Shown in pieces: positions 5,256 to 42,498 of a stretch of 64,000 bases of DNA. Position numbers and translations under genes: made by a program. Every line of letters starts with the position of its first letter. Position 1 is the first letter of the stretch. The notes under the pieces are model-generated. The model was not told the origin of the DNA. It searched no databases and was given only the letters and a program-made list of their open reading frames with translations. Location of the stretch: assembly GCF_013283875.1 (NCBI RefSeq), contig NZ_CP054139.1, positions 2,852,001 through 2,916,000 on the forward strand. The letters run 5' to 3'. The DNA is from Mucilaginibacter mali (GTDB lineage: Bacteria > Bacteroidota > Bacteroidia > Sphingobacteriales > Sphingobacteriaceae).

Positions 5256-6125
5256 TTACGAAACATGGAATGGAGCAACCAAATTTAGCACCTGAGCCAT
5301 AGTTAGTGGCTCGTCAAAAGCCTCAACAGCCGCTGATAATGAAATGGTAGAATTTGCAGAGACACCCGGCAATTTGGTAATATCAACAGCAGGACTACCT
5401 TGCATTGTGTTATTTTCTGATGCATAATTGCCATCAACAGTGCTGATGCCGGTATCGTTGGCTACGTTACCGGTCCCTAATGATATCCAGGGTTTTGTTG
5501 CGCTTGCTCCGCTAATGGTAGTACGGCGCAAATAACGTATGGCCGAGGCGTGGCGCGCCTCTACCGAGTGGATATTCAGGGCTGCTGTTAAATAGGTTTG
5601 GTCTTTCAGCAACACACCAGCCTGTCCCTTATAAGCACGTACCCCGGTATCTTCAAGCACCTGCGCTACAGCAAGAAAGGTTGCATAATTAGTAAAAACC
5701 GTTGCAAACGCCCCTCCGGCAGTAAAATCATAACTACTATCGGCAGGTTGCGCTACTGCATTAGTGCCTAAAGCAGTTTTTAGGAAGTTCACGTGCGATA
5801 CCTCATGCGCGGCAATCGGCGCTAAAATATTCGTACGATCTGACGTGGGTACAACCAACGAGGCTTGCGCTAAACCGGTGCGGTAGAACGCCGCTTCAAA
5901 GTATTCCAGTTTTAAGGCAAAGTTTAATGTGGCCAATACCGCCGATGATGGTACTTGTCCATAAGCCTTTTTAAGCAACTCACTAAAGGCAAAGGGCAAA
6001 GCGGCTACCGCTACTTTGCTACCGAAACTGGTCATGTTTTTTATCGCGTCTCGGCGCGGGCTGATGCGGTCCTGAAACTCTGGATCAGCTTTTTCAATAT
6101 CTTCGAATAATTCAAATAAATTCAT
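5256..6125 (-). CDS. Ferritin-like domain protein (Ferritin_2 family)
   Basis: 289 residues. A four-helix ferritin-like domain of the desiccation-related PCC13-62 type; two ExxH iron-ligand motifs are seen (AAHEVSHVNF and SVEARHASAI). A twin-arginine-like segment (SPRRDAIKNM) precedes a hydrophobic stretch at about residues 30-48, so export through Tat is likely although the leader is long and atypical. It is the second gene of a two-gene operon, 11 bases after its paralogue. The family is linked to stress and desiccation, but its chemistry is poorly known. Confidence 0.82.
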   Translation of the reverse strand: MNLFELFEDIEKADPEFQDRISPRRDAIKNMTSFGSKVAVAALPFAFSELLKKAYGQVPSSAVLATLNFALKLEYFEAAFYRTGLAQASLVVPTSDRTNILAPIAAHEVSHVNFLKTALGTNAVAQPADSSYDFTAGGAFATVFTNYATFLAVAQVLEDTGVRAYKGQAGVLLKDQTYLTAALNIHSVEARHASAIRYLRRTTISGASATKPWISLGTGNVANDTGISTVDGNYASENNTMQGSPAVDITKLPGVSANSTISLSAAVEAFDEPLTMAQVLNLVAPFHVS

Positions 6126-6136
6126 GGCAATGTTGA

Positions 6137-6823
6137 TTAAGGGACGTAATTGAATGAAGCAGCGCTAACTTTGGTTTTAAGATAGGTGTTGGCAATGGGC
6201 AATACCTGCGCGATGCTTTGGGCCTTGTCCATACCATTGCCATCTAAAATCATATTGTTGGCAAAGCTACCGTAACTAACCAGGTTGCGGATATATGAGG
6301 CATGGCGCGCCTCTACCGAAACGATCTTACCGGCCAATAGCAAATAATCCGGGCTTTGTATCAGGTAGCCTGCGCCATTATAGGCGCTAACCCCTGTATC
6401 TTCAAAAGCCTGGGCCGCTGCAAGCACCTGGGTACGATTACTGAAATTAATACTGCTAAAATCGGGGGTCAAACTGCCGATAGCGTTTGAACCTAAAGCT
6501 GCTTTGAAGAATTCGCGATGCGCTACTTCGTGGTCCCTGATGTCAGTTAACAAGGCTGTCTCAGTAGGCGTAATCCCGCTGTACGGCGTTAATGCAACCT
6601 GGATATAAAAGGCCGCCTCTAATTGCTCAAGCGCGTAGGCATAATTTAAAATGCCGGTATCGCCCGAACCTACATCAACTGTGTTAAAAATGTTATCGTG
6701 GTGTTTGTGGCACGATGACATGGCCAGTACACCTGTCGCGGCAACTGCCCCTGCACCTGCATAGCGCAAAAACGACCGGCGAGCCATGTTTACGTTAGTT
6801 CCTGTGTCAAATAATGTTTTCAT
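6137..6823 (-). CDS. Ferritin-like protein, Tat lipoprotein
   Basis: 228 residues. The N-terminus has twin Arg at 15-16 (ARRSFLRYAG), a hydrophobic run and a lipobox ending at Cys38 (LAMSSC), so the protein is probably Tat-exported and lipid-anchored. The fold carries two ExxH motifs (DHEVAHREFF, SVEARHASYI) that match those of the downstream paralogue. Translation may start at Met1 or at Met13, and either keeps the RR motif. It is the first gene of the operon, with an inverted repeat in its upstream region. Confidence 0.83.
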   Translation of the reverse strand: MKTLFDTGTNVNMARRSFLRYAGAGAVAATGVLAMSSCHKHHDNIFNTVDVGSGDTGILNYAYALEQLEAAFYIQVALTPYSGITPTETALLTDIRDHEVAHREFFKAALGSNAIGSLTPDFSSINFSNRTQVLAAAQAFEDTGVSAYNGAGYLIQSPDYLLLAGKIVSVEARHASYIRNLVSYGSFANNMILDGNGMDKAQSIAQVLPIANTYLKTKVSAASFNYVP

Positions 6824-30356: not shown

Positions 30357-30429
<73 letters not shown>

Positions 30430-30431
30430 CT

Positions 30432-30466
30432 AAATCCCTTCCAAATAAAAGAAGGGATTTGTTTTT
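30432..30466 (+). terminator. Hairpin after tRNA-Gly
   Basis: Stem AAATCCCTTC / GAAGGGATTT, 9-base loop, then GTTTTT. It may end a share of the transcripts or be a processing hairpin between the two tRNAs. Confidence 0.7.
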
Positions 30467-30488
30467 GAAGGCTTAGACGCCTAACCAT

Positions 30489-30573
30489 GCTCAGATGGTG
30501 GAACTGGTAGACACGCAGGACTTAAAATCCTGTTCCCGTAAACGGAGTGCGGGTTCGATTCCCGCTCTGAGTA
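30489..30573 (+). tRNA. tRNA-Leu(TAA)
   Basis: 85 nt with the long variable arm of a class II tRNA. Acceptor GCTCAGA / TCTGAGT (last pair G-U), anticodon stem-loop CAGGA-CTTAAAA-TCCTG with anticodon TAA, T arm GGGTTCGATTCCC. CCA is not encoded. Confidence 0.95.
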
Positions 30574-30576
30574 CAA

Positions 30577-30840: not shown

Positions 30841-31779
30841 TCACAAAATAGCAAGTCTCATTAAAATATCTACCTGCGGATCCCCCATCACCTGATACCT
30901 AATCTCGCTGGAACGTACAAAACCCTGTCTTTCATAAAAACAGATCGCTTGCTGGTTCTGATCCCATACTCGTAATATCAATTCGGTGGATGCCCGGTTT
31001 TTAGCAACGCCCAGCGCATGTGCGATCAAAGCCTTGCCAATACCCAATTTCTGGTAAGTACCCAGCACGTAAATGCTGTCGATCTCCGTTTTCATCTCGT
31101 CCAGACACAGCTTCAGATAACCGGCGGTTTGTCCATTGTAACTGGCCAGGTAAAATATAACGGCAGGGTTGCTTAGTTCAGCTAAAAGGCGCGCCCTGTT
31201 AAACAATTCCCGGGTAAAATTTTGGTAAGCTTCGGCATCGCCGAAGGCCTCAAAAAATGTTTCGTAATAGCTACGTTGGCAAATGCTGATCAACTCATCA
31301 AGTCCACTTATGCCAATCCGGTTAATTTCAAGCGGTTGGCGTTCAAGGTATAGCAGTGGAAAAGGCTCGCCATTACTATCGGTTTCAGAATAGCCGGTAA
31401 TGCTGAAACCAAAATGCTGATAGAAACCAAGTGCCTGCTGATTTTGTTCGTTGACCTCCACTTTGGTCACCTTATAGTGATCGATCGCATGGCGCATCAG
31501 CGCGCCGCCCACACCTATGCCAATAACCGAGGGGTGCAGGAACAGCATATCGAGGCTATTGCCGGATACACCCGCAAAGCCAGTAATATCGCCGGCATTA
31601 TTTCTTATACAGAAAATACCAGGTTGCTCAAAATACTTATGTTCTTCGATCAGGCTTTTAAGCAACTGTATCTTTTCTTCCTTAACGAAATGATGAGTTG
31701 CCCGCACGGAAGCTTCCCAAACTTCCATTAAGCGTTGATGCTCTCCCGGAAGTAATTGACTGATCGCGTGATGCATCAT
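30841..31779 (-). CDS. Double GNAT acetyltransferase
   Basis: 312 residues with two GNAT domains in tandem (about 5-145 and 155-305). Acetyl-CoA loops are GIGVGGALMRHA in the first and KLGIGKALIAHAL in the second. Substrate unknown. It overlaps the molybdopterin oxidoreductase gene by 4 bases (ATGA type), so it is the last gene of the redox operon read from 35.3 kb. Confidence 0.85.
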   Translation of the reverse strand: MMHHAISQLLPGEHQRLMEVWEASVRATHHFVKEEKIQLLKSLIEEHKYFEQPGIFCIRNNAGDITGFAGVSGNSLDMLFLHPSVIGIGVGGALMRHAIDHYKVTKVEVNEQNQQALGFYQHFGFSITGYSETDSNGEPFPLLYLERQPLEINRIGISGLDELISICQRSYYETFFEAFGDAEAYQNFTRELFNRARLLAELSNPAVIFYLASYNGQTAGYLKLCLDEMKTEIDSIYVLGTYQKLGIGKALIAHALGVAKNRASTELILRVWDQNQQAICFYERQGFVRSSEIRYQVMGDPQVDILMRLAIL

Positions 31780-32552
31780 AAGCCGGAATAATAATCATAA
31801 CCCTGTTCGGCCCAGTAATCCGGTGGGCGCTGGTTGCTAAAAGTCATGCTACCTATACGCTTCAGGTTCTTAATACCGTATTTTACAGGGATAATGAGCC
31901 GTAAGGGTTTACCATGCTGCGGCGGTAATGGTTTGCCATTCATTTCGTAAGCCAGCAACGTTTGCGGGTGCATGGCGCTGGGCATATCCAAACCCACGTA
32001 GTATTGCTTATCGGGCGTTGTAAGCCCCATATAGTCCAAACTGGTTTCTTCATCTAAACCAAAATGACGTACAAAATCACGCATGAGTAAGCCTCCCCAG
32101 TGCTGGATCTGGTCCCAGCCTTCCACGCATTTAAAATCGAACACCAGGTCGGTTTTTGGCAGGGCCTTAATCTGGTCGAGATCAACATACAGCTTTTGCC
32201 CGTTGTTTTTAATGACCTCCAGCTTCCATTGATCAAAATCGATAGTGCTGTCAGAACCGATATCTTCATTATGGCGCACAGTCTTTACAGCCATTTCCAC
32301 AGGATAGGTTTTTACCAGGTGATTTTCGTTAAAGGTCAGCCTCCGGAAAAATAGCTCGGTCTTGTTCAGTGCCCGGCGTAAAGGCGCCCGTGTACCCGCT
32401 GTTACGCCAGGCACTTCTTGGGGTGCATTATACAGCCATTTCCAGCCGCCATAAGCTGCTGCGCCCATCGCGCCAAACACACCGAAGGAAATGAAATTAC
32501 GACGTTTGATCCGCTGATCGATGGTCAGAGATACTTTAGCTTTCTTTTTCAT
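31776..32552 (-). CDS. Tat-exported molybdopterin oxidoreductase, MsrP/YedY-like
   Basis: 258 residues. Twin-Arg signal KRRNFISFGVFG (Arg17-18), then an Oxidored_molyb (sulfite-oxidase-type) domain. Cys142 in DFKCVEGWDQIQHWGG is the expected ligand to Mo. In MsrP/YedY this domain reduces methionine sulfoxide in periplasmic proteins; other members of the superfamily are sulfite oxidases. The dimerisation domain of true sulfite oxidases is absent, which favours the MsrP type. The upstream gene encodes a cytochrome b that could supply electrons. Confidence 0.82.
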   Translation of the reverse strand: MKKKAKVSLTIDQRIKRRNFISFGVFGAMGAAAYGGWKWLYNAPQEVPGVTAGTRAPLRRALNKTELFFRRLTFNENHLVKTYPVEMAVKTVRHNEDIGSDSTIDFDQWKLEVIKNNGQKLYVDLDQIKALPKTDLVFDFKCVEGWDQIQHWGGLLMRDFVRHFGLDEETSLDYMGLTTPDKQYYVGLDMPSAMHPQTLLAYEMNGKPLPPQHGKPLRLIIPVKYGIKNLKRIGSMTFSNQRPPDYWAEQGYDYYSGL

Positions 32553-33231
32553 CCGTTTCTATGTTGATTTTTGGTTCGTGTTGCCGGATCACCTCAAAAC
32601 CCGAGATCACCGAGCGGAAATTATTCCAACCGGCCAGGACCACCTGGATGACGTGTACCAGGAAGAAAAACACATAGCCCAGGGTCAGCACAAAATGCCA
32701 GATCCGCGCCAGGTGGTAGCCGCCCATCAGCCAGGTGAGCCAGTTGAACTGCACCGGCTTATAAATAGCCAGGCCGGTCAGTACGGAACCTGCGCCCATC
32801 AGTATGATGGCCGTATAGGCGATCCGCTGGGCGGCGTTGTACTTGCCTTGCGGTGGTGCGGTCTTTTTGATATGCAGGTCATGCAACAAAACCAGCCAGG
32901 CTTCCTTAAAAGAGTGTTTATTGGGTAACAAATGCCGCCATTCACCCGATATGGCCGTATATAACACATAAAAGATACCGTTCAGCGTAAAGAACCACAT
33001 GAACAGGAAATGAAAAGCCATGCCTTCAGACAGGCGCTGCGGGATATGCAAAGCATCATAAAACCACTGCGGAAAGAAGCGTACAAATGTATGCCCGAAG
33101 ATCGTTACGGTGTATACGTCGTTAGCCCAGTAAATAAGCAGGCCGCTCCAGATCATGATGCCCAGCAACGGAAAATTGATCCAGTGCGTCCAGCGCATCA
33201 CCAACGGATGTTTTTCTTTAATGGCTTTCAT
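32536..33231 (-). CDS. Cytochrome b membrane subunit
   Basis: 231 residues, four membrane helices, with heme-ligand candidates His16 (WTHWINF), a His in MAFHFLFMWFF, and paired His in GGYHLARIWHFVLTLGYVFF-type helix 4. Ni-hydrogenase/thiosulfate-reductase cytochrome b type rather than the MsrQ (YedZ ferric-reductase-like) type. It overlaps the oxidoreductase gene by 17 bases and is the likely electron donor from the quinone pool to the exported enzyme. Confidence 0.85.
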   Translation of the reverse strand: MKAIKEKHPLVMRWTHWINFPLLGIMIWSGLLIYWANDVYTVTIFGHTFVRFFPQWFYDALHIPQRLSEGMAFHFLFMWFFTLNGIFYVLYTAISGEWRHLLPNKHSFKEAWLVLLHDLHIKKTAPPQGKYNAAQRIAYTAIILMGAGSVLTGLAIYKPVQFNWLTWLMGGYHLARIWHFVLTLGYVFFFLVHVIQVVLAGWNNFRSVISGFEVIRQHEPKINIETDEKES

Positions 33232-33514
33232 CGCTCAGTTTTTCTTCGATCTTTTTCTGCATGGCGGCTTTGAAGTCAGGGTCGAGGCGCAGTTCGCCTG
33301 TTGGCTTGTTATTGAACAGGCGATGCATCATTTGACTGATCAATATGCTCTGCCGCTCATAAGTCCGGCAGATAGAACAGCCAGCCAGGTGAATCTTTAG
33401 TTCCAGCTTTTCGCGCAGGCTGAGGCTTACACTTTGCTTTTTCTCGATCAGCAGCGTGGCGCGGCGGCAGTTATAGGCGATGCTTTTCAGCGGATTGTTC
33501 GTTCCCTTTTTCAT
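33218..33514 (-). CDS. Zinc anti-sigma factor (ZAS type)
   Basis: 98 residues, soluble. The zinc-binding H-x3-C-x2-C signature is His42-LAG-Cys46-SI-Cys49, and Cys16 may be the fourth ligand, as in RsrA/ChrR-type anti-sigma factors. No membrane helix. The ATG at 33514 overlaps the sigma stop codon (ATGA). By family logic it holds the sigma factor inactive until oxidation or metal loss releases it. Confidence 0.78.
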   Translation of the reverse strand: MKKGTNNPLKSIAYNCRRATLLIEKKQSVSLSLREKLELKIHLAGCSICRTYERQSILISQMMHRLFNNKPTGELRLDPDFKAAMQKKIEEKLSDESH

Positions 33515-34080
33515 AGCCAATTCTTTTGTAAACACGACCGCAGATTTACCTTGGCGCGGTGAATGATCACCCAAAAGTTTGATGAAGTTAACTTTAAGGC
33601 CTCGCAGATCTGCTCGGTACCTTCCTCATCCAGGTGCTTCATGCGGAACACCGACAGCCACAGCGGCGGCAGGCGCTGCATACACTTTTGCAAAACGCCC
33701 ATAAACTCCTTATTATGTAAAGGATCTTGATCTTCCACGCCGAAAGGCAGCGGCCAGTGTTCTTTTTTCCAGTGGTGCAGCCCGGATTCAAAGAATTCGG
33801 TTTCTTCATTTACAGTTCCGGCAGTACGAGATTGCTTGCGGTAAACATCGATCACCTTGAACTTCAGTATCGCGGTAAGCCAGGTGCGCTCGCTGCTTTC
33901 GCCACGGAAATTACTTATTTTTTCCAGTGCTGCCAGAAAGGTTTCTTGTACCAGGTCCTGCGCCAGTTCTTCATCGTTCAGCCGGCTCAATGCATAACTG
34001 TATAGGTAGTCCGCATAGCGGCTCACCCACAGCTGTGGCTGCAATAATTCTTTGTCCTGTATGGTTACGGTTTCCGGCAT
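33511..34080 (-). CDS. ECF-type RNA polymerase sigma factor
   Basis: 189 residues. Region 2 is visible in NDEELAQDLVQETFLAALEKISNFRGESSERTWLTAILK-type text (about 35-80), and region 4 near 130-180 (WLSVFRMKHLDEEGTEQICEALKLTSSNFW). Lacks regions 1 and 3, as expected for ECF sigmas. Coupled to a zinc anti-sigma gene. It should direct expression of the surrounding redox genes, and probably of itself. Confidence 0.92.
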   Translation of the reverse strand: MPETVTIQDKELLQPQLWVSRYADYLYSYALSRLNDEELAQDLVQETFLAALEKISNFRGESSERTWLTAILKFKVIDVYRKQSRTAGTVNEETEFFESGLHHWKKEHWPLPFGVEDQDPLHNKEFMGVLQKCMQRLPPLWLSVFRMKHLDEEGTEQICEALKLTSSNFWVIIHRAKVNLRSCLQKNWL

Positions 34081-34104
34081 GCTTCTTTAACCTAATTTAC
34101 GTAT

Positions 34105-34488
34105 TTATTTCATATCCAGCTTTTGCGCCAGTTCAGTGGCGTCCACAAAACCTTCAATCCGCTTCACCTCTTTGCCGTTTTCATCGATCAGCAACAGTGT
34201 GGGATAACTTTCGATGTGATATTTCTCAGCAAATTGCATCCCATTACCTTTTTCTACATCGATAGCCGCGTTGATATAATGGTTGTTGAGATAGGCCGCC
34301 ACCCTTTTGTTTTTAAAGGTGGTTTTTCTTAGTTCCTTGCATGGCGCACACCAGCTGGCATAGGCATCCACAAACACAGGCCTATGCGCCTTCTTAGCTT
34401 TAGCCAGTGCAGTGCTGATATCGCTTTCGGTGAAACGGGCCTCAGCAAATGCGGTCAATAGTAACAATATGGTAGCTAACCGGATCAT
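34105..34488 (-). CDS. Exported thioredoxin-like protein
   Basis: 127 residues. Signal peptide at about 1-17 (MIRLATILLLLTAFAEA), then a thioredoxin fold with the active site WCAPC (Cys47, Cys50) and cis-Pro loop YPTLLLID. A periplasmic disulfide reductase or a reductant for the neighbouring peroxiredoxin. Its start overlaps the peroxiredoxin stop by 4 bases. Confidence 0.87.
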   Translation of the reverse strand: MIRLATILLLLTAFAEARFTESDISTALAKAKKAHRPVFVDAYASWCAPCKELRKTTFKNKRVAAYLNNHYINAAIDVEKGNGMQFAEKYHIESYPTLLLIDENGKEVKRIEGFVDATELAQKLDMK

Positions 34489-35093
34489 TTCAAAGCTGTT
34501 GCTGCGGCAGTTAATAAGGCCGGACTGATACGCTGCGTAAAGTCAGGGTTGATATATTCGAACTGTATCTTACCTTTTTGATCCAGGATAAATACCGAGG
34601 GTACCGGCAGCAGTTTATCGGTATTCTTACCTGCGGAACCTTCGGCGATGGTCTTCGCATAAGCCGCCGGGGCCTGGTAAGCCAATCCAAACTGTTTGGA
34701 AACCGCCAGATCTGCATCAGACAGCAAGGTGTAGCCTAATTGATGTTTGGTGATGCTTTTATTCAGATTCTCCGGACTATCGGTGCTGATCGCGATCAGC
34801 TGATAACCCAGTTTCACCAGGTCTGCCTGGGCCTTCTGCAAACCCGCCAGCTCTTTATTACAATAAGGACACCAGCCGCCACGGTAAAAGATCAGGATGG
34901 TGGGCTTTTCGGCTATGCGGGCATTCAGGTCAAACACCTGGCCATTTGCGGCCGGGACTTTTACGGCAGGTATGGCTTCACCGATCAGCAGCGGGCTGAT
35001 ATCGGTAGGTTTGGCGGGATAACTAACCGCCTGGGCCAAAGCAGTTGTAAAAGCTATGCCAAATAACAATATAAGGGTAAATATTTTTTTCAT
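34485..35093 (-). CDS. Exported peroxiredoxin-like protein (AhpC/TSA)
   Basis: 202 residues. Signal peptide at 1-20 and an AhpC/TSA fold with FYRGGWCPYCNKEL (Cys75, Cys78), a CxxC placed where typical peroxiredoxins have a single peroxidatic Cys. The pattern resembles Bacteroidota peroxiredoxin-like proteins with a Trx-like active site. It could reduce peroxides or act as a thiol reductase in the periplasm. Confidence 0.85.
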   Translation of the reverse strand: MKKIFTLILLFGIAFTTALAQAVSYPAKPTDISPLLIGEAIPAVKVPAANGQVFDLNARIAEKPTILIFYRGGWCPYCNKELAGLQKAQADLVKLGYQLIAISTDSPENLNKSITKHQLGYTLLSDADLAVSKQFGLAYQAPAAYAKTIAEGSAGKNTDKLLPVPSVFILDQKGKIQFEYINPDFTQRISPALLTAAATALK

Positions 35094-35140
35094 ATAGGTT
35101 TCAAATAGCCGGGCAAACCTTCGCCAGCCCGGCTTGGTGA

Positions 35141-35344
35141 TTACATTTTTTTGGTGGTGTCTTTTTTCATTTTAGACATCTTCTTATCCATTTTCTTGTC
35201 CATTTTTTTGTGATCCATTTTAGACATTTTCGACATCTTGGTGGTGTCTTTTTTCATTTTAGACATTTTGTCCTGAGCCTGGGTGTTTACGGCTAAACCC
35301 AGCACGGCGATAGCCACCAGGGAAATTGATTTAAGCATTTTCAT
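35141..35344 (-). CDS. Exported Met/Lys-rich repeat peptide (MXKDX type)
   Basis: 67 residues. Residues 1-24 are a clear signal peptide (MKMLKSISLVAIAVLGLA). The mature 43 residues contain 10 Met and 18 Lys, no Cys and no aromatic residue, in repeated short words (SKMKKDTTK twice, DKKM, SKM). This is the pattern of pentapeptide MXKDX-repeat proteins, which include MrpX, a methionine-rich sink for hypochlorite in Azospira suillum. It is the first gene of the redox operon. A metal-binding role via Met or His is an alternative. Confidence 0.8.
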   Translation of the reverse strand: MKMLKSISLVAIAVLGLAVNTQAQDKMSKMKKDTTKMSKMSKMDHKKMDKKMDKKMSKMKKDTTKKM

Positions 35345-35451
35345 GTTCGGTTTTTTAAATTTATTGGCTTAGTCGTAGTTCAAAGACCGGCCTTACATTT
35401 TTTTTAATATTTTTCTGTAAGAAAACCCTGAAGCATACTACTAAACCATAG

Positions 35452-37788: not shown

Positions 37789-37861
<73 letters not shown>

Positions 37862-37865
37862 CTTC

Positions 37866-41046: not shown

Positions 41047-42498
41047 TTAGCTCATCAATTTGATGATCCTTTTCAGATTGACGGTGAAGATAGCCAAGGC
41101 GCCCTGCATCTGCATATTTTCGATTCCGTAGGCTATTGCCCGGTCATAACCATGAGCATTTTTCAACTCGCTGTTCTTGGCTTCGATCTTATACCTGTGT
41201 TTGCTGCTTTGTTTATACTCGTCAGTTTCCTGAAATGCCATTTGCTGTTGGTGCAGACCTGATTTAATGCTAACGGAATAGGTTTTGGTTTTGGCCCCAG
41301 GCTTATAGCAACCATCTCTCAATGGACATACCTTACACTTTTCAACATCAAAGTAATAAGTATCAACCTGATTCTCTCCGATATCCTTTTTACCCCCGCG
41401 CGCCTTCCGGATAGCCAGATGCCCGGCCGGGCAGACGAACCGATCAGCATCTTTATTGTAATCAAACTTATTTTCATCTTTTCTGAAGCCCTGGGTGATC
41501 GACGGGTTGAGTTTAGCCACCAGTTTGATATCTTGTTCATTTGTCATTTCAAGGTTCTCTTTCCCTGAATAAGCAGAATCCCCGATGATCGTTTTTACGT
41601 CAATGCCATTCTGCTGACTGATCTCCAAAAGCTTAGGGAGTTCCGGGCCATCGCCTTTTTCACCCGAGGTGACCACCGCTGCGGTAATGATGCGTTCTTC
41701 GGTCATCGCCAGATGGGTCTTATAGCCAAAGAAGGAGCTATCAGCCGATTTATGGCCGGTTTTAGCATCCTTGTCTTTGGATAACGTATAGTGCTCCTGC
41801 GTGTCTGCTACCGTCTCCTTCAACAGGTTCAGCTTTTCTTTTACCGCAGGTATCTGGCTTAACGGCGGGTCGGCTTCAATATACTTTTCCAATGCACTGC
41901 AATAGGCAAGTTCTTTTTCCAGTTCATCCGTGGTGTTCTTTTCCGGCATCCCTGCCTTCATATCTTCATCTATGGCATACACCGCTTTGCGAAGCCGTTT
42001 CGAGCGCTCCCTTAATACTTCTAAGGCTGAATACGGATTTGATCTTGACAGGGAATGTGTAGCATCAACTGTAATGGACTTTGACCGGATGATCCCCTTT
42101 TCAATGGCGATGGTTACCGTTTTATTGATGAGCAGGTTTAACAGATCGTTATCCTTCAGCCGAAGCTTTCTGAACTTGGTCAATGAGCTCGGATCGATAA
42201 CCCCTTCCTCTGGAGACATCTCCAGAAAATATTTGAAGGACATGTCATACTGCGAACGTTCCACCACATCTACATCTGAAACCGTATAGATCGTTTTCAA
42301 CAGCAGATATTTGAACATCCGTACAGGGCTTTCGGCTGTCCGCCCATTGGTTGTGCAATATTTGCTGATCAATTCCTCGTAGATAAACGTAAAATCTATC
42401 AGGTCATTGATCTTCCGCAGAAGATTATCTTTCGGAACGATCAGGTCATATAACCCTGAGTATGCACTGAACTGGATCTGCTGTTGCTGAATGAGCAT
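41047..42498 (-). CDS. IS1182 family transposase
   Basis: 483 residues, intact. DUF772 N-terminal domain (about 1-130, MFKYLLLKTIYTVSDVDVVE) and a DDE domain with the first Asp in SITVDATHSLSRS, the second in TIIGDSAYSGKENLE, and the last acid in a KHRYKIEAKNSELKNAHGY block. The reading frame has no frameshift, so it may be active. Confidence 0.95.
   Translation of the reverse strand: MLIQQQQIQFSAYSGLYDLIVPKDNLLRKINDLIDFTFIYEELISKYCTTNGRTAESPVRMFKYLLLKTIYTVSDVDVVERSQYDMSFKYFLEMSPEEGVIDPSSLTKFRKLRLKDNDLLNLLINKTVTIAIEKGIIRSKSITVDATHSLSRSNPYSALEVLRERSKRLRKAVYAIDEDMKAGMPEKNTTDELEKELAYCSALEKYIEADPPLSQIPAVKEKLNLLKETVADTQEHYTLSKDKDAKTGHKSADSSFFGYKTHLAMTEERIITAAVVTSGEKGDGPELPKLLEISQQNGIDVKTIIGDSAYSGKENLEMTNEQDIKLVAKLNPSITQGFRKDENKFDYNKDADRFVCPAGHLAIRKARGGKKDIGENQVDTYYFDVEKCKVCPLRDGCYKPGAKTKTYSVSIKSGLHQQQMAFQETDEYKQSSKHRYKIEAKNSELKNAHGYDRAIAYGIENMQMQGALAIFTVNLKRIIKLMS

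Follow-up and report, generated by a model that had tools for sequence, protein, structure and literature searches.

In Azospira suillum, the extracytoplasmic function (ECF) sigma factor SigF and its anti-sigma factor NrsF form a hypochlorite response system together with YedY1/YedZ1 and MrpX (PMC4623255, PMC8315932), and in Brucella melitensis BcrS-AbcS is described as controlling bcrXQP, which is induced by hypochlorous acid (HOCl) (PMC8315932). MsrP and sigma factors that sense reactive chlorine species, the latter with DUF1109 partners, are also reported among the genes near chlorite dismutase (PMC9751292), in an article whose text does not mention Bacteroidota. In Neisseria, MseR is a zinc-binding anti-sigma (ZAS) protein of sigmaE, which controls MsrA/MsrB and for which the promoter consensus GTMAGBWTT-N12-13-CGTCTAAH is given (PMC2893595). 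According to PMC7907618, Haemophilus HrsE is a 67-amino acid (aa) cytoplasmic anti-sigma factor, and HOCl induces rpoE2, whose product controls the periplasmic MsrAB. EcfF-OsrA is another pair reported to control methionine sulfoxide reductases (PMC3420878). Here we compare with these systems an operon of Mucilaginibacter mali (6.04-Mb genome, single contig), located on the minus strand at positions 30841-35344 of a 64,000-nt stretch (hereafter, the window), which encodes an ECF sigma factor, an anti-sigma factor, a molybdopterin oxidoreductase, a cytochrome and an exported Met/Lys-rich peptide.

Judging from sequence comparisons, this operon is probably the chief member of a small autoregulated regulon that scavenges oxidants and repairs methionine sulfoxide in the cell envelope. 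This reading is the most likely one because the same predicted ECF promoter precedes the operon, a DUF1223 gene and an exported msrA-msrB operon, and not the msr genes that lack a signal peptide (signal peptides were called by eye throughout). The promoter, TGTAAGG-N15-CGACTAA, lies at 35369..35397 (minus strand) and ends 24 nt 5′ of the start codon of the peptide gene. In the M. mali genome, five sites matched it with one mismatch or none, and a reversed control pattern had no match. Besides the window copy, one site lies 36 nt before the DUF1223 gene (G000:C1:1183705-1183733; L161) and one 31 nt before the exported msrA-msrB operon at 4,383,430, where 13 of 14 positions match and the -10 element is CGTCTAA. 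The best matches near the two genes without a signal peptide, msrA (951,396) and msrB (4,242,565), reached 10 of 14 positions on either strand. The two further sites lie 401 nt upstream of a transporter-like open reading frame (ORF) and 91 nt upstream of one that resembles a small lipoprotein gene; they are possibly chance matches. The Pfam family DUF1223, a domain of unknown function, comprises secreted thioredoxin-like proteins. The M. mali member appears secreted and carries a CSSC motif; its gene sits about 1.7 Mb from the cluster and has kept the promoter, while in most sigma-bearing relatives the gene is in the cluster itself. Within the window, no copy was found before the sigma, peroxiredoxin, thioredoxin or cytochrome genes, and because the single copy stands before the peptide gene, sigma synthesis is probably driven by the promoter of the whole operon.

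The initial annotation had described eight genes on one strand, most of them overlapping or close, and the ORF list contains all eight. The peptide (MXK; 35141..35344), which resembles MrpX in composition and location, is likely a methionine sink. It is followed, after a gap of 47 nt, by an exported peroxiredoxin-like protein with a CPYC motif (34485..35093; AhpC-TSA/Redoxin in Pfam) and, with a 4-nt overlap, by an exported thioredoxin with a CAPC motif, which in Pfam and family models resembles the C-terminal domain of DsbD (34105..34488). After a 24-nt gap come the ECF sigma factor (33511..34080; Sigma70_r2 and r4_2) and, overlapping one another by 4, 14 and 17 nt, the small anti-sigma factor (33218..33514), a membrane cytochrome of b561 type (32536..33231; PF01292), likely the carrier of electrons from quinol to the enzyme, and a single-domain molybdopterin oxidoreductase with a twin-arginine translocation (Tat) signal (31776..32552; PF00174), likely a periplasmic methionine sulfoxide reductase of YedY1/MsrP-like type. 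Thus, five of the seven junctions overlap, the last being that of 4 nt between the enzyme gene and a double GNAT acetyltransferase gene (30841..31779; two Acetyltransf_1 stretches in Pfam). Seven genes, all but the last, form a coherent unit. The initial annotation had counted the GNAT gene as a member, but the corresponding loci of the three closest relatives (L063-L065) yielded no homolog, and it was rejected as a part of the system despite its overlap; it is probably a passenger.

Using the molybdopterin enzyme as query, we found a strong ortholog (E 5e-73 or better) in 24 of 25 genomes of a same-genus sample (M. mali included; G001 gave a distant match only); the 16 genomes from other families in the same first sample had none. 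At E 1e-20, a match was present in 47 of 201 genomes of a family sample, two of them distant only, and in 17 of 395 genomes of a phylum sample. In a first locus set, 72 loci and the window were mapped; counts were made on the 58, the window among them, that carry an enzyme or a cytochrome of the window type. The cytochrome was present in 56 of these, DUF1223 in 38, the sigma factor in 35, the anti-sigma factor in 34, the peroxiredoxin in 28 and the peptide, recognized by its Met/Lys composition, in 26. A second set of 80 loci, which has genomes in common with the first, comprised 63 full-length loci after exclusion of 17 that were too short. In 43 of the 63, a single 12.7-kb stretch contained both the sigma and the enzyme gene, accompanied by the anti-sigma factor in 41, DUF1223 in 39, the peptide in 35, the peroxiredoxin in 29 and the strict form of the promoter (-10 element CGACNAA) in 42; the promoter was still found in 8 of the 20 loci with no sigma gene in the stretch. 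The loci of the second set belong to genera including Mucilaginibacter, Pedobacter, Chitinophaga, Dyadobacter, Ferruginibacter and Hufsiella. The neighborhood is conserved across genera, beyond chance, but the gene order of the window is rare. Two mapped loci share it, L064 and, except for a missing thioredoxin gene, L065, whereas most sigma-bearing relatives have a divergent arrangement with DUF1223; the commonest layout places DUF1223, cytochrome and enzyme on one strand and sigma, anti-sigma, peptide and peroxiredoxin divergently, sometimes with modABC nearby. A thioredoxin homolog was found in 5 of the 58 loci (low threshold, window counted) and in 1 of the 63, and because of this rarity we rejected the thioredoxin as a core part.

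TGTAAGG-N15-CGACTAA is common to the upstream regions of the mapped loci. When the 160 nt upstream of each gene in these loci were considered, the strict form preceded 21 of 27 peptide, 26 of 35 sigma and 26 of 38 DUF1223 genes, and 3 of 58 cytochrome, 2 of 29 peroxiredoxin, 0 of 5 thioredoxin and 0 of 9 modA genes, as well as 1 of 11 copies of c14, a small cluster gene in some relatives. Across the family sample, 46 of 48 sigma-bearing and 9 of 153 sigma-less genomes contained the motif (Fisher p about 1e-33). Because no more than 16 candidates were scored in each genome, the sigma search may have missed a few genes. Since a reversed control pattern matched in 20 of the 153 sigma-less genomes (and 9 of the 48 sigma-bearing ones), the motif matches in sigma-less genomes are no more than chance would give, though at least one of these sites (G188) is nearly identical to msrA sites elsewhere. 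In 20 chosen genomes, the strict form occurred 66 times (in 18 of the genomes), compared with 6 for the reversed control. Thirty-nine sites were in the cluster and 27 outside, and 16 of the latter precede msrA and/or msrB, one a truncated msrB (12 of these 16 targets were confirmed by Pfam and the others by motif or eye). Two more precede long MXKDX-type peptides in two genomes (112 and 122 aa; L144 and L145), and two precede TonB-receptor-like genes (by eye). The other seven targets include a thioredoxin-reductase-like gene (pyridine nucleotide-disulfide oxidoreductase), a DUF417 gene and a second anti-sigma gene. This last, a ZAS gene, stands directly 3′ of a strict promoter copy outside the main cluster (L122; G022:C1:1158200). 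Because msr targets recur across genomes and places, which is otherwise hard to explain, we consider that the sigma factor serves methionine sulfoxide repair. The predicted ECF promoter is conserved as a sequence, and the sigma factor of the operon would be the one to use it.

The sigma factor was compared with both groups of known regulators. TIGR02943 and PRK-type (PRK12532-type) models top the lists for the window sigma factor, gonococcal sigmaE and homologs from Acinetobacter and Burkholderia glumae, and the NrsF-linked sigma factor of Methylobacterium matched a different set of models. In pairwise comparisons, the window sigma factor aligned with gonococcal sigmaE over its full length (35% identity, E 9e-31, composition correction off) and gave partial matches of 22–32% to three DUF1109/NrsF-linked sigma factors (E 1e-8 to 6e-6). 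By these comparisons, it is not of the SigF/ECF16 lineage. Sigma factors of the same lineage on plasmids of Acinetobacter portensis (L262) and B. glumae (L264) adjoin thioredoxin and CcdA genes, with a peroxiredoxin-like gene as well in A. portensis; such neighbors were not seen beside the Sphingopyxis homolog. The proximity to thiol-protein genes in those two species suggests an older link of the switch with thiol export.

For the anti-sigma factor, we took the ATG at 33514 as the start (98 aa) in place of the longer TTG start of the ORF list. The protein has no Pfam match and no membrane helix by eye. Its motif, C16-X25-H42-X3-C46-X2-C49, fits the ZAS pattern C/H-X23-26-H-X3-C-X2-C quoted in PMC7907618, from which zinc binding is predicted, and two alignments of homologs keep all four residues without exception (34 of 34 and 26 of 26), in agreement with the initial designation as a zinc anti-sigma factor. 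In pairwise tests, again with composition correction off, it shares 35–43% identity over 37–48 residues with the gonococcal, Acinetobacter and B. glumae partners (E 3e-9 to 2e-11), and no similarity to three DUF1109/NrsF proteins was detected. A structural model with a predicted local distance difference test score (pLDDT) of 84 gave weak Foldseek matches, RsiW first (E 0.57 and worse). A second comparison aligned it with MucA (Z 6.8, root-mean-square deviation (rmsd) 2.4, 54 residues), RsiW (Z 6.3, rmsd 2.6, 69 residues) and RslA (Z 5.2, rmsd 4.7, 62 residues). These model-based matches are suggestive only, and a profile search against solved structures gave no match. As a whole, the regulator resembles the sigmaE-MseR type, to which it would belong or be close.

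The molybdopterin enzyme is a 258-aa protein with PF00174 as its sole domain. Cys142, which occupies the Mo-ligand position, never varies, either among 25 homologs (25 of 25) or in a set of 15 with greater diversity; the twin arginines Arg17-Arg18 are invariant in the 25 and not in the diverse set. The best NCBIfam match is MsrP (NF003767), with a score of 88.5 bits against a cut-off of 207. When relatives of the enzyme and cytochrome were sought on plasmids by tblastn, every cytochrome/molybdopterin pair had less than 60% identity. Of 11 annotated pairs examined, with 29–37% identity to the window pair, five lie near a pentapeptide MXKDX gene (Caballeronia, Methylobacterium, Klebsiella variicola, Kozakia and Rahnella). 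Three of the five, those of Caballeronia, Methylobacterium and Kozakia, also have an ECF sigma factor with a DUF1109 or NrsF partner, and the Methylobacterium and Kozakia loci hold msrA and msrB in addition. The gene tables of the other six pairs (two Rhizobium, Paraburkholderia, M. aquaticum, Agrobacterium and Paroceanicella), which are incomplete, list no MXKDX gene; three more plasmid stretches carry no annotation, and one further plasmid locus encodes MsrP with a ferric-reductase-like partner. The window enzyme matched nine pairs that fall in one clade with the MXKDX-linked ones at E 1e-33 to 1e-42, E. coli MsrP at E 3e-25 and Sulfurospirillum MsrP at E 9e-27. By sequence similarity, then, the window pair is related to the MXKDX-linked pairs of Pseudomonadota. 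The best local match of the cytochrome to E. coli MsrQ had E 1.2, that is, no similarity. We counted the presence of moaA in the M. mali genome in favor of envelope repair by this enzyme.

These results suggest the following mechanism. The ZAS anti-sigma factor would keep the ECF sigma factor bound in the cytoplasm until its Cys/His zinc site is oxidized, by analogy with RsrA, MseR and HrsE; the freed sigma factor would then fire the TGTAAGG-N15-CGACTAA promoters, that of its own operon included, giving positive feedback. The exported peptide may absorb oxidant as methionine sulfoxide, as proposed from MrpX and BcrX; if cleaved before QDKMSK, its mature form would have 10 Met and 18 Lys among 44 residues. 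Electrons from quinol would pass through the b561 cytochrome to the Tat-exported molybdopterin enzyme, which would reduce the methionine sulfoxide of both the peptide and envelope proteins, and the exported peroxiredoxin-like protein and thioredoxin may clear peroxides or recycle thiols. The same promoter is predicted to turn on the exported MsrA-MsrB operon and the DUF1223 thioredoxin-like protein elsewhere in the chromosome. Redox sensing by the switch and methionine sulfoxide as the substrate are both inferred, and hypochlorite would be the inducer by analogy with the known systems.

Several observations weigh against this reading. In 23 of the 58 loci, the enzyme occurs without a sigma gene in the covered stretch, and hence it seems to be under other control as well; conversely, genomes G059 and G181 have the sigma factor and lack the strict motif, and 11 of the 27 out-of-cluster sites precede no msr gene. 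The window sigma factor scores 144.4 bits on its best model, TIGR02943, below the cut-off of 162.2 that gonococcal sigmaE and the Acinetobacter and B. glumae homologs pass, and the anti-sigma factor falls just short on NF052368 (48.5 bits, cut-off 50). The peptide lacks the regular MXKDX repeat and did not match the MXKDX model TIGR02953 at E up to 10, though two relatives' peptides with the same promoter (L144 and L145) pass the model (43.8 and 50.2 bits, cut-off 41). Neither the gene tree nor the fold comparison firmly places the enzyme with MsrP. In the tree (48 rows), the window family forms one group on its own branch (89/93), is not joined to the Pseudomonadota YedY1 group, and has as its nearest branch MsrP, which is long and not starred (92/86); long branches meet here, and the tree does not discriminate between nearness to MsrP and to YedY1. 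The enzyme model (pLDDT 81.5) matched sulfite oxidase (Z 16.3, rmsd 2.9, 168 residues aligned) and YedY (Z 15.9, rmsd 2.8, 175 residues aligned), a tie that makes the fold non-discriminating. Moreover, meningococcal msrAB is reported in PMC2893595 not to be induced by peroxide, diamide or singlet oxygen, and an oxidant signal is thus not universal for sigmaE-type pairs.

The fold and superfamily shared with sulfite oxidases raise the question of whether the operon detoxifies sulfite, with an enzyme that oxidizes it and a sulfite-responsive ECF sigma factor, as reported for SorT and SorA in Sinorhizobium and Starkeya; cognate sigma factors of this kind are reported for such enzymes (PMC6527743). 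We regard this as improbable. No second (dimerization) domain of SorA/SorT type was found by Pfam in the 258-aa enzyme, which has PF00174 alone, and the enzyme scores far below the cut-offs of both sulfite dehydrogenase models (SorA, 49.6 of 600 bits; SorT, 46 of 570 bits); in addition, the promoter targets are mainly msrA, msrB and MXKDX peptides. The same targets bear on copper or metal stress, in which the Met-rich peptide would bind Cu(I) and the thiol proteins would mend copper damage. Met-rich periplasmic peptides can bind Cu(I). Caulobacter SigF is described as taking part in the heavy-metal response (PMC3511200). However, no metal pump, chaperone or oxidase was recognized among the first genes after the 27 out-of-cluster sites, several of which have no family match, and most of these first genes encode methionine sulfoxide reductases, so that we hold a metal-stress role to be highly improbable. 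A general thiol or peroxide stress operon, responding to disulfide or peroxide stress and not to hypochlorite, with methionine sulfoxide repair as one output, is a real though lesser possibility. It would account for the peroxiredoxin and thioredoxin in the operon, for the peroxiredoxin-like, thioredoxin and CcdA neighbors of same-lineage sigma factors in A. portensis and B. glumae (though not Sphingopyxis), and for the site before a thioredoxin-reductase-like gene. Against it stand the msrA/msrB targets, which make up 16 of the 27, and the rarity of the thioredoxin in the clusters of relatives.

If the operon serves envelope methionine sulfoxide repair, it combines features of systems described separately. 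Like Azospira SigF/NrsF-MrpX and Brucella BcrXQP, it has a Met-rich exported peptide, a molybdopterin oxidoreductase with a membrane cytochrome and an adjacent ECF sigma/anti-sigma pair; this likeness was tested through the Caballeronia, Methylobacterium and Kozakia loci as stand-ins for the Azospira and Brucella proteins. The twin-Arg single-domain molybdopterin oxidoreductase and PF01292-like cytochrome expected of a SigF/NrsF-MrpX-YedY1Z1 system are both present. In contrast to those systems, the sigma factor is distant, the anti-sigma factor is a small ZAS protein instead of DUF1109/NrsF, and the peroxiredoxin, thioredoxin and DUF1223 are added. The small ZAS anti-sigma factor and, in many relatives, the promoter core GTAAG...CGNCTAA with matching spacing are shared with sigmaE-MseR and RpoE2-HrsE (ECF group 13), both represented in our comparison by the sequences of the gonococcal pair; the sigma factor is probably of the same lineage, and exported MsrA/MsrB are the predicted target here as well. 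Unlike sigmaE-MseR, the window sigma operon also encodes the molybdopterin enzyme, the b561 cytochrome and the Met/Lys peptide, the -10 element is mostly CGACTAA versus CGTCTAA, the window promoter copy lacks WTT, and the anti-sigma factor has 98 aa compared with 59–69 aa in the three homologs examined. E. coli MsrPQ likewise consists of a YedY-type molybdopterin enzyme, single-domain and Tat-exported, and a membrane protein that supplies its electrons, but the donor here is of PF01292 b561 type and not an MsrQ-type flavocytochrome, and an ECF sigma factor takes the place of the HprR regulator gene that adjoins msrPQ.

The view that this is a Bacteroidota counterpart of the hypochlorite systems with added thiol proteins and a different sensor, put forward in the initial annotation, agrees with the conserved neighborhood, the MXKDX-linked relatives of the enzyme and the promoter at exported MsrA/MsrB. 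Both halves, switch and effectors, are known in other phyla. We give about an even chance to the more specific proposal that, in Sphingobacteriaceae and some other Bacteroidota, a sigmaE-MseR switch took over MrpX/YedY1Z1 effectors, with DUF1223 as a new part of methionine repair or its electron supply. In the open-licence PMC literature we found no published description of the joined system, the Bacteroidota regulon or the DUF1223 link, which is weak evidence of novelty; among the papers listed, none was specific to ECF groups of Bacteroidota, none of those checked for DUF1223 mentions it, and MXKDX is mentioned in connection with Asaia and Brucella. The arrangement had initially been called undescribed; the regulator, left unnamed at the time, is of or close to the known sigmaE-MseR type. 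The analysis provides a complete predicted regulon (promoter, switch and targets) for envelope methionine repair in Mucilaginibacter, Pedobacter and relatives. That a similar effector set is wired to two unrelated anti-sigma types suggests a general need to deal with methionine oxidized beyond the inner membrane. For Mucilaginibacter and similar soil bacteria, the operon would be a self-switching kit that takes up oxidants and repairs oxidized methionine in that location, and DUF1223 gains a testable role, its gene having retained the promoter at a distance from the cluster.

Several other features were observed in the window. The operon is closely followed by tRNA-Gly and tRNA-Leu genes at 30357-30574, and another tRNA-Gly gene is found at 37789-37862. 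An IS1182-type transposase-like ORF (by eye) is located at 41047-42498, and two adjacent ferritin-like genes (by eye), one of them with a twin-arginine start, occupy positions 5256-6823.

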